From: a virus
Length of the DNA: 35,576 bases
Strand: one strand, 5' to 3'
IMG/VR virus record: IMGVR_UViG_3300033571_002641
Span: 1 to 35,576 of that record
In this document: positions 23,431 through 29,026 of the stretch, one piece after another
How positions within the stretch are numbered: position 1 is the stretch's first letter
Layout of the letters: each line of letters begins with the position of its first letter
Notes under the pieces: model-generated
Seen by the model: only the letters and a program-made list of their open reading frames with translations
Database searches by the model: none
Told to the model about the DNA's origin: nothing
Position numbers and translations under genes: made by a program

Positions 23431-24887
23431 TATTTACTCCCTGGCTTTTTTGGAGGGTCAATTAGTCTAGAGAAGGTGACTGATACTGATGTAAACACAG
23501 GTATCATCTTTTCATTAAAGATTGTGTGGTTAACCTCTAGCGATGAAATTGTGCCCCAGTAACGAAGGTTCTTTCCTAAGTGCAGTTCAATAGGGACAGC
23601 ACCAATAAACCCAAGGTCCGCAGTTATTCCTCGTAACCAAGACTGTTGGATTAGCGTGCCCGCACTGGCAGTACGTAGAAGATACTCTAGGTCGTACATA
23701 GTGCCCTTGTTGTAAATCATCATCTGGTCTTTAGCAGTAGGGATGTTTTCTCCATACTGCTCCTTACCTGCCTCCGTAAGAAGCCCAGTCTTGTTGTAGT
23801 ACTTCATATCCGCCATACGGTTAATGAGTATCTCAAAACTAACGGTTGAAAAAGCACCGTCGCTTCCAGCAACGTTGAACTTTTCCTGACCACTAGATAG
23901 ATAACCGATGTCTACAGCAGGGCCAATTTGATAGGACATGTTAACTGTGGCAGGGTTGTATAGAAACTGGAAGCCCCACTTAACCCAAGCCGCTTCGTAA
24001 GAGTAACCAGCAGCATCTCCAGCATTTCCAGTAGGAGCAATGCCCGTGTTGTTTCTAATAGGGTTAGTCATGACAAACATGCCCTTGCTGTTGCCTGCAC
24101 CACGCCACAGTTGAGCGGCCCTAGAAATCTTGCTAGGGGTGTTGCCTTTGTACGTAGTTTGTTTTAGGTAGTCCTTAGCAGTACTTAGGTACGCTTCTTT
24201 GACGGAGTTGACGTTGTAAGTTATCCCCAAGCCAGACTGCGGCTTACTGACAGTCGCTCTACTAGCCGTGTTTGCTGCAGTGTCTTGGCTACCAACTTTG
24301 TTCCCTGCGTCTGGTGCGACGTTCGTATTGACCACTGGAGGAGCAGTTGGAACCACCACAGATGCTGGAGTTTCCGCAGCAACCTTTGCCTCATGGGTGT
24401 AGGTGTTAGTTTCTGGTTTTGGAATCAACGCAATTTGTTGCTCAAGTTCATCGACTATATCTACGTATTTAATTCGCTTAGTGTCTAGGCGAGTTTGAGT
24501 AGCAGTTAGTTGTTTAATGTAATCGTTTTTTACGGAAGGACTAGAAAATACCAAAGTCTTTATTTCAATGAATCCTTGGGCAATTTTATCCTGAGCCTTT
24601 TCAATTTCAGTTAGAAATGCTTTAGCCGCTTTTAAGTCATCTTTTAATGTGGCAGTGTCTGTGAACTTGTCCGATGCCTTATCGTAAGCCTGATAACCTG
24701 CAGAAGAGAGTCTTTGTGCAGCAGAGATGTAGCCTGTAATTTTAGCAGTGCTTGCTGCGTTGACTTCTGCAGACACTACTCCAGAACCAGAACCACCCGT
24801 AGAAGGCCTACGTCCTTGTTGTACGTTAGTAACAGTGTCTTTAGGGTCAGTTTGATACAACTCAGGCGGTATGTAACGTCCAGTCAT
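23430..24887 (-). CDS. Tube-initiator/CIS-tube-like baseplate protein
   Basis: In this 485-residue protein the first 200 residues are helical and low complexity: a coiled coil at about 75-150 (KDDLKAAKAFLTEIEKAQDK), then a Pro/Thr/Val linker. The C-terminal half has the fold signature of contractile-injection-system tube/gp54-like proteins: KWGFQFLYNPATVNMSYQIG, FSTVSFEILINRMADM and a final beta strand FTSVSVTFSRLI. It probably bridges the hub to the first tube ring. ATG at 24887 has GGAAG upstream in a TAATG overlap with the tape-measure gene. Confidence 0.72.
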   Translation of the reverse strand: MTGRYIPPELYQTDPKDTVTNVQQGRRPSTGGSGSGVVSAEVNAASTAKITGYISAAQRLSSAGYQAYDKASDKFTDTATLKDDLKAAKAFLTEIEKAQDKIAQGFIEIKTLVFSSPSVKNDYIKQLTATQTRLDTKRIKYVDIVDELEQQIALIPKPETNTYTHEAKVAAETPASVVVPTAPPVVNTNVAPDAGNKVGSQDTAANTASRATVSKPQSGLGITYNVNSVKEAYLSTAKDYLKQTTYKGNTPSKISRAAQLWRGAGNSKGMFVMTNPIRNNTGIAPTGNAGDAAGYSYEAAWVKWGFQFLYNPATVNMSYQIGPAVDIGYLSSGQEKFNVAGSDGAFSTVSFEILINRMADMKYYNKTGLLTEAGKEQYGENIPTAKDQMMIYNKGTMYDLEYLLRTASAGTLIQQSWLRGITADLGFIGAVPIELHLGKNLRYWGTISSLEVNHTIFNEKMIPVFTSVSVTFSRLIDPPKKPGSK

Positions 24888-27412
24888 TAGTAACTTCCCA
24901 TGTTTGAGGTGAGGGTATCTTTGTCAAGATATGACTTAACTAGTTTGGCAAATCTGGCTGCTTCGGTCTCGCTGACCTCTGGAATCTTAACTTCAATGTT
25001 CACGGTGTTTCCCCCACCCGATACAGGTTTAGTAGAAGTTCCTCCTGCAACAGTAGTTCCGCCTCCAGCCTTAGCATTGGCTAGGTTAACCATAGAGTTG
25101 ACTGCTCCCTGCATTGTGGTCATGTCTCCAGATGCCAGCCCTGCAACAATTGCTGCAACTTGCTGGTTAGTCGCTCCAAAGAACCCTGAGTTTGCTCCTG
25201 CAGCAGCAGTACCTGCGTTTAACATCTGTTGAACAGTGCTGTTTGCTGCAGACGAATCGCCAGAACTAGCAGCCCCTGCTCGACTAGCCCCCGTCTGTAA
25301 GGTCGATGCGTTAATCTGTGCGAGTACTTTTCTAGGGTCTACCTTGTTACCGTTTCTATCTTGGCACTCAAAGTGTAAGTGTGGTCCTGTAGTTCCTCCA
25401 GAGTGACCACTGTATCCAATCAGTGCTCCCTTCTTAACATACTGACCTGCTTCAACTACCATCTTGCTTAAGTGTCCGTAAACAAATGTGTAACCAGTTT
25501 GTTCATGAAGCACATGTATTTGTTGACCTAGGCCAATGCCGCCCTTAGCATCTTTAGCAAGTCCGTCATACTTAGTTCCACCACTAGGAAGTTTTTCTCC
25601 TAGATACAATCTTTTTGAACTTCCTTCGGCTTTTGTAACTTTTCCTGCACATACGGAATAGACAGCCTTACCATCGGGTGCTTGAAAATCTAAGCCTTTG
25701 TGCGGACGACCAGTTAACTTAAAGTAGATTCCTGTTTTGTCGTTGTAGCCTGCACCTTTAACTACCTGTGCTCCAGGTATTGGTTGAGTTGCCAACCCAG
25801 AACTGTTCTCTTCTATACCACCTTGGTTAGGGTCAACGTTTTCAGGATTTCGTTTGTTGTTTACAGGTCCTGCGTTATCCATCCAGAGTCCACCGCCAAC
25901 AACCGTTGTGGTTAATCCTGAAGCAGCCATTGCACCAAGTCCAAGACTTCCTGCTGTAAGGTTCATGGCAGGGAAAAATGCTGTGGAAGCAGCCCCAATT
26001 TTGTCACCTAACATAAACTGAGCAGCGGCTTTACCTAACTCAGCAATGTTGCCGCCATAGAAAGCAGCAGCAGCACCCGCAGCCTTGGCCCCACCTTTGT
26101 ATGAGTTGCTAGTCTGCATAGTAGACAAGAAGGCTAGGTTAACTCCCGCCATAGTGGCAGCAAGAGTTCCAGATACTTCATTCAATAACTCCAAAGGTTT
26201 TACGGCAGCAGTCAGTCCCTGGATGTAAGACTGCTCTGCCTTGTCCAATTGGTTTGTTTCTGAGGAGTTGAGTGCGTACAAAGAGTTCATTGGGTTGGCG
26301 TTACCAATTGCTGCACCAGAGCCCAGACCAAACGCTCCACTAGGACCAAGGTCGTTGTAAATTTTATTCATAGAACTTGTGTCAGACAAGTCCATCTTGC
26401 TACCACCAGCACGTTCAATCATGTACTGCTTAAACATCTCAGCACCTGCTTGGTCATTACCAAACGCTGATTTAATGTTCTGGCCTAAGAACCCTCTACG
26501 AACGCTGTTTAGAGTGTCTTCAATAGATGCACCTTCTCGCCCAGCAGTAAACCTCTGAGCAAGTTCCTCAAAGATTTGTCCTTGAGTTTTTTCCTTACCA
26601 GTGTTCAAATCAGAGGTATAGATACCGAACTTACGGAGCATGTTGCTAGAGCCTTCAGCACTAGTTAGTCCTTCAATAGACTGTGCTGCTGCCTCATTGC
26701 TAATGTTTAGGTACTTACCTGCGTGAGAGATAGTTCTTAAAGTTTGTTGGTAAGTGCTGTTTGGGTCATTGGCAACGTTCATGCCACGACCAGTAAGATA
26801 CTTAGCCACACGAGCATCTGCTCCAACAGAGGTCAGTCCACCAATGTCGTTTAGTGTTCCAAGAGTCATGTCCTGGACGCTAGGCATCCCAACAGGAAGA
26901 CCTAAATTACGACCTAAAGCAGTCATACCATTTGTCGCACGAGGGTTCCTGTTACCTGCGTACATAGTGGCGTTGTAGTACTCAGTTGCACGAGTAAACG
27001 TTGCCCCCATGTCAGGAAGCATTTGGTGAATTCCTGAAGTAACGTTACTGAGCATTGTAAGTGCGTTTTTTGGGTCTTCGTCTTTCATACCCGACGCTTC
27101 GTTAGCAGCACCGTTCTTACCAAACGCACCAAGCATGGACTTTACAGCCCCACCAGTACCGCCACCGCCTCCAGTAAACCCACCTAAAGAATCAGCCATT
27201 AGGTTGCCACCTGTGCTGCCTAGTGCTTTTTGGCCACCAGCAGTGATGTTGCCCATGGCACCCTTCATGCGGCTACCTAAAGACTGTGCTGCCTTATTGG
27301 CTCTCTCCACATGGTCTGCCATACCCTTGGCAGCATCCTTAGCACTGGTGAACGCACCGCCAAGTTTCTCAACGGTCATTCCACCCATAAGGTTGGTGAC
27401 TATGTTTCCCAT
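24887..27412 (-). CDS. Tape measure protein with M23 endopeptidase domain
   Basis: This 841-residue protein is a helical, Ala/Gly-rich tape measure (about 1-530) with hydrophobic stretches near 415-510. A complete M23 (LytM-like) zinc peptidase domain follows at about 550-695. The zinc and catalytic residues are visible: H571 and D575 (PHKGLDF), H647 (YGHLS), H678 and H680 (GPHLHFE). The last 140 residues are low complexity. M23 enzymes cut peptidoglycan crosslinks, so the tail can open the cell wall during entry. AAGGA precedes ATG at 27412. Confidence 0.92.
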   Translation of the reverse strand: MGNIVTNLMGGMTVEKLGGAFTSAKDAAKGMADHVERANKAAQSLGSRMKGAMGNITAGGQKALGSTGGNLMADSLGGFTGGGGGTGGAVKSMLGAFGKNGAANEASGMKDEDPKNALTMLSNVTSGIHQMLPDMGATFTRATEYYNATMYAGNRNPRATNGMTALGRNLGLPVGMPSVQDMTLGTLNDIGGLTSVGADARVAKYLTGRGMNVANDPNSTYQQTLRTISHAGKYLNISNEAAAQSIEGLTSAEGSSNMLRKFGIYTSDLNTGKEKTQGQIFEELAQRFTAGREGASIEDTLNSVRRGFLGQNIKSAFGNDQAGAEMFKQYMIERAGGSKMDLSDTSSMNKIYNDLGPSGAFGLGSGAAIGNANPMNSLYALNSSETNQLDKAEQSYIQGLTAAVKPLELLNEVSGTLAATMAGVNLAFLSTMQTSNSYKGGAKAAGAAAAFYGGNIAELGKAAAQFMLGDKIGAASTAFFPAMNLTAGSLGLGAMAASGLTTTVVGGGLWMDNAGPVNNKRNPENVDPNQGGIEENSSGLATQPIPGAQVVKGAGYNDKTGIYFKLTGRPHKGLDFQAPDGKAVYSVCAGKVTKAEGSSKRLYLGEKLPSGGTKYDGLAKDAKGGIGLGQQIHVLHEQTGYTFVYGHLSKMVVEAGQYVKKGALIGYSGHSGGTTGPHLHFECQDRNGNKVDPRKVLAQINASTLQTGASRAGAASSGDSSAANSTVQQMLNAGTAAAGANSGFFGATNQQVAAIVAGLASGDMTTMQGAVNSMVNLANAKAGGGTTVAGGTSTKPVSGGGNTVNIEVKIPEVSETEAARFAKLVKSYLDKDTLTSNMGSY

Positions 27413-27413
27413 G

Positions 27414-27575
27414 CTACTTCCTTACAACTCTTCCAAGTTCTCTGCCCATTTCTAGCCAGTTCTTGCGTTCTCTAAAACTGAGTCCTTGAATCTCTTTCAA
27501 AGACCAGCCACTAAATACCACTGCCAGTGTTGTCCACTGATGCATAAGGGTTTCGTAATCTAGAAGATTAGAATC
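27414..27575 (-). CDS. Frameshift-encoded tail-chaperone extension
   Basis: The 155-base space between the gp26-like gene and the tape measure is open in the +1 frame. It encodes 53 residues ending just before the tape-measure start: DSNLLDYETLMHQWTTLAV at the beginning, then FSGWSLKEIQGLSFRERKNW, MGRELGRVV and RK. The frame stays open upstream to 27605, inside the previous gene. The first ATG (27545) has no SD, so I favour +1 frameshifting at TTTC (27579-27576). This would give a fusion of about 321 residues, like the chaperone pairs upstream of tape measures in other tails. Confidence 0.6.
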   Translation of the reverse strand, partial: DSNLLDYETLMHQWTTLAVVFSGWSLKEIQGLSFRERKNWLEMGRELGRVVRK

Positions 27576-28380
27576 GAAATAGGGTCCCGAGATTAATCGG
27601 AACGTCTACCTCTCCCTCACAGTCAGGACATACGACTGTGATGTTTTCGAATTGTGGGCCAGGGTTGCGGGATGTAATCTCGTTTAAAATGCTGCGTCGG
27701 TCAACAAGTCCTAGGTTAAGTACCTGCTGCTTGCTAACTACTGGTGCTCCATTAATCTCCACTACACAGTGCTCCAGAAGAACTGACTGCAGTTCTGCCA
27801 TAGTGCGGTCTGGATTAGAAGTAAGTTCTCTTTGAACTAACCCAGTTGGTAGTGTAACTAGGAACTCGCCCTTCTTACCTTCCACAGTGAATGTGCGGTC
27901 TGCTGGGTCAATTAAAACCTTTGTCTTGATGTCGGAGGTTATGTCGACTTCAATAGTTTTAACGTCACTGCAGCCTTGGCAAAAAGCACCAATTTCTGCG
28001 GTGTTACCAAAAGTGGCACGGTGGATTCCAAGTAGTAGTGCGTCTCGGTCACCTGCAAGTAGTGAGTCCAAGATTTTATCGGTGGCTCTTTCGCTGCCGA
28101 TACTTACCACTGCTCTGCTAAGGAGAGCGTTTAGTCCCCTGCCCAGAGTAGTGGTCTTGCTTAGGAACTCTTCGTCTTTACCGTTAAGTTCCCGAACCTC
28201 TGCGGTCTTGATGACCTCCCCGTCTGGAGTAACGTATCCAGCAGGGAGGTGCACCAAGGTGTCCGAAGGCGGTTGTATTTCGGCTTTTACAGGAGTGGTA
28301 GTCTGGTCAGCAGTTGCTCTGCTAATTAAGTCATTAGCCAGAGTTGGATTAGATGCTGCTTTGAATGATTGTTCTTCCAT
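27568..28380 (-). CDS. gp26-like baseplate hub / tail chaperone protein
   Basis: This 270-residue protein matches the T4 gp26-type baseplate family in layout: LPAGYVTPDGEVIKTAEVRE, LNALLSRAVVSIG and LLAGDRDALLLGIHRATFGN, then a zinc-like site from two CxxC pairs (C134, C137 and C251, C254) flanking a beta domain. It ends VPINLGTLFRF. Being immediately upstream of the tape measure with an out-of-frame continuation, it may also serve as the tail assembly chaperone. ATG at 28380 has AAAGG upstream. Confidence 0.75.
   Translation of the reverse strand: MEEQSFKAASNPTLANDLISRATADQTTTPVKAEIQPPSDTLVHLPAGYVTPDGEVIKTAEVRELNGKDEEFLSKTTTLGRGLNALLSRAVVSIGSERATDKILDSLLAGDRDALLLGIHRATFGNTAEIGAFCQGCSDVKTIEVDITSDIKTKVLIDPADRTFTVEGKKGEFLVTLPTGLVQRELTSNPDRTMAELQSVLLEHCVVEINGAPVVSKQQVLNLGLVDRRSILNEITSRNPGPQFENITVVCPDCEGEVDVPINLGTLFRF
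27574..27579 (-). other. Candidate +1 ribosomal frameshift site
   Basis: On the minus strand the gene ends CTA TTT CGA TTC TAA. A Phe tRNA on TTT can slip +1 onto TTC, which pairs better, while CGA waits in the A site. This moves translation into the frame that runs on for 53 codons to 27414. No pseudoknot was modelled. Confidence 0.4.
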
Positions 28381-28402: not shown

Positions 28403-29026
28403 TTATCTAAAGGCTGGTGCCTTAGTGGTTAGGTCTGGAGCCCAGTTAACGTCGAATCCTTCGTGGACTAGAGTCATCTGCTCAACCAGAATAGCGTTGT
28501 CACCTGCGTTTAGGTCAGAGTACGCAATAGATGTAATCCATGCGTTGTAAACCTTGAATCGCATTGCAACGTGGTCGGTTGAAGTTCCGTTAGCACCACC
28601 AGTCAGTTCTTCTCCTCCACCCGAACCTGGGATTGGGTGCGATAGCACAGCAATCTCTAGGTCGCAACGGAAGTTTTCGTTCTGACCAGCAGCAGTAGTA
28701 CCGTTAGCCTGAACGGTTGCGAACAACTTACGCATCCAGTCCCAGTGCTGAGAGGTACCGAGGATAACACCACGCTGCAGAGTTACAGGAGAGAATGAGG
28801 TCTGACCTGGAATCTGGTGAACAGTGGTGTTGTAGCCACCTTCACGGTAAGGAATAGAGTCAGTAGTTACTGACAAACCCGATACCGAGGTGAAGCCCAT
28901 AGCAACCTTTGACTTCTTTAGAAGCGGGCTGTTAGTGGTCTGCTGTGGCAGGAAGGTAACCAGAAATCGGAAATTTCTGATTGGGTCGGTCTCAAGTTGA
29001 GAACGGTTATTGATTACTGTAGCCAT
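28403..29026 (-). CDS. Tail tube protein (gp19-like)
   Basis: This 207-residue T4 gp19-like tube subunit forms the inner tube of the contractile tail. Typical features are FRFLVTFLPQ near the N-terminus, FTSVSGLSVTTDSIPYREGG, HQIPGQTSFSPVTLQRG and the C-terminal strand MTLVHEGFDV. Length is normal for the family. It directly follows the sheath gene, the usual sheath-tube order. Confidence 0.93.
   Translation of the reverse strand: MATVINNRSQLETDPIRNFRFLVTFLPQQTTNSPLLKKSKVAMGFTSVSGLSVTTDSIPYREGGYNTTVHQIPGQTSFSPVTLQRGVILGTSQHWDWMRKLFATVQANGTTAAGQNENFRCDLEIAVLSHPIPGSGGGEELTGGANGTSTDHVAMRFKVYNAWITSIAYSDLNAGDNAILVEQMTLVHEGFDVNWAPDLTTKAPAFR

Follow-up and report, generated by a model that had tools for sequence, protein, structure and literature searches.

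In phage lambda the gene G/GT lies between the major tail protein and the tape measure, and a low-level frameshift near its 3′ end adds a C-terminal domain, giving two products in a fixed ratio (PMC5009743). Here we describe a comparable locus in the IMG/VR virus record IMGVR_UViG_3300033571_002641, whose whole stretch of 35,576 nucleotides (nt) is called the window below. All of its features discussed here lie on the minus strand, on which sheath, tube, a gene of 270 amino acids (aa), a +1 frame and the tape measure follow one another. The 270-aa gene (27568–28380) thereby holds the place, between tail tube and tape measure, that is typical of G/GT-type chaperones. Sequence comparison indicates that it very probably encodes a tail assembly chaperone of two lengths by means of programmed +1 frameshifting.

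The gene resembles G/GT in its position and in an extension acquired near the 3′ end. It differs in that the lambda shift is −1, at a heptameric slippery site that has no equivalent use here, whereas the present shift would be +1 at UUU_C, downstream of a hairpin and in a protein of the T4 gp26/gp51 family. P2 E/E+E′ is likewise a myophage gene pair ahead of the tape measure, and its E′ domain shares the pattern LM..VAV.F.W...E...MS..E...WREKA with the +1 domain; its shift, however, is −1 and its upstream domain is Phage_TAC_7, not PF12322. In a tail gene of the myovirus HSTV-2 the frameshift has been described as very likely +1 (PMC5009743); the host there is archaeal, and the likeness is one of reported shift direction alone. 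A 2016 review treats T4 as the exception to tail-chaperone frameshifting (PMC5009743), and T4 gp26 and gp51 have been listed as hub assembly chaperones (PMC3004832).

For influenza PA-X, a P-site slip from UUU to UUC is the model most favoured, and UUU_C sites have been predicted as a class (PMC3498833). The UUU_CGN sites of PA-X and the amalgaviruses share with the present one this slip and an A-site codon that starts with C (PMC3498833), but they belong to eukaryotic RNA viruses and 80S ribosomes, and PA-X has no evident stimulator, whereas here CAR codons are used as well and a hairpin is conserved. In Escherichia coli prfB (RF2), +1 shifting is promoted by a duplex that lies next to the E site and immediately before the P-site codon. 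Here an intramolecular hairpin would stand in for the Shine-Dalgarno (SD) duplex, and the A site holds a sense codon (CGN, CAR or CTC). Tail-chaperone frameshifts and +1 shifts on UUU_C are thus each already known.

The proposed frameshift junction and its conservation

The 270-aa frame ends in ...GGG ACC CTA TTT CGA TTC TAA, of which an earlier note on this DNA had given the last five codons. The putative slip site UUU_C occupies 27576–27579, with UUU in the P site and CGA in the A site, and the UAA stop (27568–27570) follows two sense codons past UUU. The same note had proposed that the gap before the tape measure is coding in the +1 frame, and we find this frame open from 27605 to a TAG at 27416–27414. 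A slip on UUU_C leads into exactly 53 sense codons (DSNLLDYETLMHQW...VVRK), and this 53-residue domain with its stop (27414–27575) would form the C-terminal part of a long product. The +1 frame does end just ahead of the tape-measure ATG, which starts at 27412, although one base separates the two and not two bases as had been stated. Its earliest ATG (27545) indeed has no SD sequence.

Relatives were collected from several sources. Matches by tblastn were found in the Streptomyces phages BRock, LuckySocke, Alone3, GiJojo and pSt2308. One scan of IMG/VR supplied 80 loci and a second scan the best 80 of at least 575 confirmed candidates. Remote loci with 32–37% identity came from public genomes of Saccharothrix, Streptomyces, Actinomadura, Nonomuraea and one Bacillota metagenome-assembled genome; an initial scan of genome contigs had found nothing. 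The usable loci number 167, with some contigs sampled twice, and 82 once redundancy is removed.

An in-frame TTTC near the zero-frame stop is present in 167/167 loci (82/82 non-redundant), always three or four codons upstream of the stop, counting UUU, and UUC occurs at the slip site in none of the 167. Elsewhere in the same genes Phe is encoded by TTT in 60% and TTC in 40% of cases; from this background, and ignoring relatedness, an invariant TTT would arise by chance with a probability of ~6e-19. In the GC-rich remote loci and in the BRock group TTC is even the prevailing Phe codon, yet the slip site is always TTT. For comparison, the Phe of a TFG motif is TTC in 13/80 loci and that of an R.F.V motif in 21/73. 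Since TTT is followed by C at only 12/303 other positions in these genes, compared with 19% of codons being C-initial, there is a hint that TTT-C is avoided elsewhere. The A-site codon is CGN in 107, CAR in 58 and CTC in 2 of the 167 loci. The expectation that TTTCGA would be conserved therefore held for TTTC and for the retention of both frames but not for a strict CGA, and the conserved core is UUU_C. With C always after UUU and CGN not obligatory, the site would work like the UUU_CGN class, but is wider.

Within the relatives the +1 frame stays open across the junction, whereas the −1 frame is usually shut within about 5–95 nt. The +1 frame encodes a recurrent peptide pattern, Y..L...W....GW[ST]L.EI..L..RER.NW. 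Past TTTC, information by codon position in the +1 phase is 0.93/1.22/0.60 bits, and the ratio of nonsynonymous to synonymous substitution rates (dN/dS) of the +1 open reading frame (ORF) has a median of 0.107 over 120 pairs. An overlapping +1 register with a conserved slip site and coding selection downstream, as expected of programmed +1 frameshifting, are thus both found. Judged from these alignments the junction is not a chance feature, because of the universal TTTC, the open +1 frame beside a closing −1 frame, and the low dN/dS. The +1 direction and the re-pairing of tRNA-Phe from TTT to TTC, as originally suggested, are supported by the invariant TTTC and the maintained +1 frame.

Two other kinds of shift were considered and rejected. 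A stop-driven +1 shift (RF2-like or CCC_UAA-like) does not agree with a pre-stop codon that varies and a stop separated from UUU by two or three sense codons, and in a −2 slip tRNA-Phe could not re-pair (e.g. with UGU or UAU).

The hairpin upstream of the putative slip site

Synonymous conservation climbs immediately ahead of the slip site, where RNAalifold detected a stem that the earlier note had overlooked; 3′ of the site RNAalifold returned no downstream stimulator structure. In the main group of relatives the consensus hairpin, GGUUCCNA-UUAAUU-UN'GGNACC, ends 3 nt before UUU. The hairpin of the window (27583–27604), CGUUCCGA-UUAAUC-UCGGGACC, has its base at the same distance from the slip codon and folds at −9.1 kcal/mol, with the outermost pair unformed. 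When 22-nt windows were scanned in 82 relatives, the mean folding energy reached its minimum exactly at −25 (−8.1 versus a mean of −1.9). The mean hairpin energy is independent of the A-site codon (CG −8.1, CA −8.2 kcal/mol).

Covariation in the hairpin amounts to 0.310, against 0.142 in shuffled alignments, and slid controls do not exceed 0.123; cells with double changes number 27 versus 7.4 ± 2.2 after shuffling. One case is the pair that joins position 3 of a Pro codon to position 3 of a Leu codon, which occurs in the states UA, GC, CG, AU and GU and is canonical in 71/74. On a 74-taxon tree this pair changes state 15 times, and the compensation is therefore not one inherited event. A covariance model gave a strong match at the junction in every main-group locus tested and a weaker one there in the BRock group, where the register of the stem is shifted. 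An alternative hairpin, AGGUA with UACCU, was rejected as the partner positions vary.

The hairpin might serve another purpose although the frameshift does occur, for instance as a transcription attenuator before the tape measure, as a protein-binding operator or as an RNA processing site. A moderately U-rich stretch (UUGUUUC) 3′ of the hairpin in the main group would suit such a role, as would the synonymous constraint seen elsewhere in the gene, near codons 38–55. We nevertheless regard it as unlikely: across the main group the base is fixed 3 nt from UUU and the energy minimum is sharply placed, a proximity that matches engineered hairpins which stimulate +1 shifting. As for an attenuator, there is no T-run, and the corresponding stretch in the BRock group reads CTGTTTCGCGAACTC.

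Further elements accompany the hairpin. A GAGGU element (27608–27612) lies 3 nt 5′ of it; its AGGT is invariant across a 41-row alignment and present in the BRock-group representatives, and its GAG and GTA codons are synonymously constrained. The element is SD-like and stands ~28 nt ahead of the slip codon, or ~6 nt if the hairpin is excised. In the N-terminal part of the gp26-like gene, at 28216–28248, synonymous constraint is also evident; GGG and CCT codons near there are almost invariant and CTCCCT...GGGGAG could pair, which suggests a second RNA element within the gene.

The two proposed products and entry into the +1 frame

The 270-aa protein matches the T4_baseplate family PF12322 (E 3.7e-7, 30.5 bits, cut-off 24.5), in keeping with the gp26-like identity first assigned to it. 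For structure prediction the zero-frame protein and its extension were folded as separate parts. The AlphaFold model of the former, with a predicted local distance difference test (pLDDT) score of 87.7, matched T4-like baseplate hub assembly proteins in BFVD (E 3.8e-20). No relative of solved structure was found by sequence. The top structural match in the PDB was the HK97 tail assembly chaperone 2ob9 (Z 6.5, root mean square deviation 4.0, 85 residues; next match Z 3.3), with weak Foldseek E values of 0.19–0.7. Together with its place between tube and tape measure this accords with the proposed link to frameshifted tail chaperones. One relative (L072) has lost both zinc-ribbon CxxC pairs of the gp26-like protein, so not all members of the family depend on binding metal.

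The +1 domain is predicted as three helices (pLDDT 86), and a fold search with it alone gave weak matches only. It resembles P2 E′, to which hhalign aligned it with E 1.2e-4 and a probability of 55%, and is matched by 8/34 members of DUF6760 (best E 9e-4). The extension of the window lies below the Pfam cut-offs for Phage_P2_GpE (PF06528; 13.5 of 23 bits) and DUF6760 (PF20546; 17.0 of 27), and membership of either is not claimed. In T4, gp26 and gp51 both belong to PF12322, and gp51, not gp26, continues for ~48 residues past the domain, and in these residues T4-like phages share the pattern Y.L.SIM.M.P.ER. This extension aligns with the +1 domain (E 0.002), and the predicted fusion is co-linear with gp51 (E 7e-4), at probabilities of 14–26%. 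Whereas T4 has two separate genes, the present phage would have one frameshifted gene; tentatively, T4 makes its short and long chaperones from these two genes, which, if true, would explain why it does without a tail-chaperone frameshift.

Could the +1 ORF instead be a separate small gene, reached by internal or coupled re-initiation past the zero-frame stop, with the overlap incidental? Public annotation of BRock, LuckySocke, Alone3 and GiJojo does give the +1 domain as a truncated separate gene (pSt2308 has no annotation at this place), and a genuine separate gene is found in Streptomyces loci of injection-system type. There, the last bases of a zinc-ribbon ORF (CPHCEGGFEVDLSGGRLGES) are shared, as GTGA, with a DUF6760 ORF that carries a GGGGGA SD sequence. 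Judging from their proteins these loci (L175–L191) are probably extracellular injection systems, and their DUF6760 ORF probably corresponds to the phage protein in unfused form. They have no in-frame TTTC, so that truly separate genes lack the very UUU_C whose invariance a separate gene leaves unexplained; within the phage lineage, a downstream gene with its own SD sequence, which would have spoken against the original proposal, was not found.

Initiation signals point the same way. Of the 82 non-redundant loci, 16 lack any ATG, GTG or TTG in the +1 ORF ahead of the core motif, and 73 lack a start there with an SD-like tetramer; competing start codons were rejected, since none is consistent. 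The annotated starts in BRock-group genomes conflict among near relatives and sit inside the conserved domain, and these genomes appear to be misannotated at the chaperone gene. With the usual starts missing in some loci, SD-like sequences in most, and the annotated starts inconsistent, the +1 frame is most likely entered by frameshifting, and a separate gene is highly improbable. That a sequencing or assembly indel split one gene, conceivable for a single metagenomic virus record, is excluded for practical purposes by the same junction in 167 loci, five sequenced Streptomyces phage isolates among them.

Flanking the gene, the tail tube protein is encoded at 28403–29026 (PF06841, E 3.8e-28) and the tape measure protein, the presumed client of the chaperone, at 24887–27412. 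The latter carries an M23 peptidase domain (PF01551, E 1.3e-21).

Proposed mechanism and its significance

In the sequence comparison both frames are under selection, the slip site is invariant and the hairpin covaries; from this we infer the shift itself, its efficiency, the role of the hairpin and the chaperone function. Under programmed +1 frameshifting, the majority of ribosomes would terminate at UAA to give the 270-aa short form. In the remainder, P-site tRNA-Phe (anticodon GAA) would slip from UUU to UUC, one base ahead, and 53 more codons would be read to give a long form of 321 aa. The hairpin would refold behind the ribosome beside the E site and push it forward, taking over the job of the internal SD duplex in RF2. 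Coating the tape measure protein would probably fall to the short form; by analogy with lambda G/GT and P2 E/E+E′, the long form is likely to bring in tube or hub components through its helical extension.

On 70S ribosomes, +1 shifting is stimulated when an engineered hairpin lies upstream, beside the E site, where it imitates the internal SD sequence of RF2 (PMC6321510); in yeast, too, an upstream hairpin has a stimulating effect on +1 shifting (PMC3639245). The geometry observed here fits the engineered E-site model, and in view of what the engineered hairpin does on 70S ribosomes (PMC6321510) the present one looks like a natural example.

Several observations weigh against this interpretation. 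The hairpin is short, at 7–8 bp, and in the window the outermost pair is a C-C mismatch. In the most remote loci (L169–L173) the stem is weak or its register differs. The A site is filled in 58/167 loci by CAR, which is not known to be slow; with CAR in about a third of A sites, a hungry codon alone does not account for the pause. The likenesses to HK97, P2 E′, DUF6760 and gp51 are each weak individually. We give about even chances to the fuller proposal, in which a large lineage of contractile-tailed phages would use a natural +1 shift driven by a co-translationally refolding E-site hairpin in place of the SD duplex, and the T4 paralogues gp26 and gp51 would correspond, as two genes, to the short and long chaperone.

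In the literature searched, mostly open-access, we found neither a T4-type chaperone whose gene combines a +1 shift with a 5′ hairpin that is conserved and covaries nor any conserved hairpin stimulator of +1 shifting, and no paper on DUF6760 or on a frameshift in BRock. Frameshifts in tail-chaperone genes are common, +1 cases rare. With more than 80 diverged copies carrying a covarying hairpin, an effect of upstream hairpins seen in engineered constructs becomes a natural system open to testing. The lineage also connects the T4-type hub chaperones with G/GT, and makes it testable whether T4 has replaced the frameshift by two genes.
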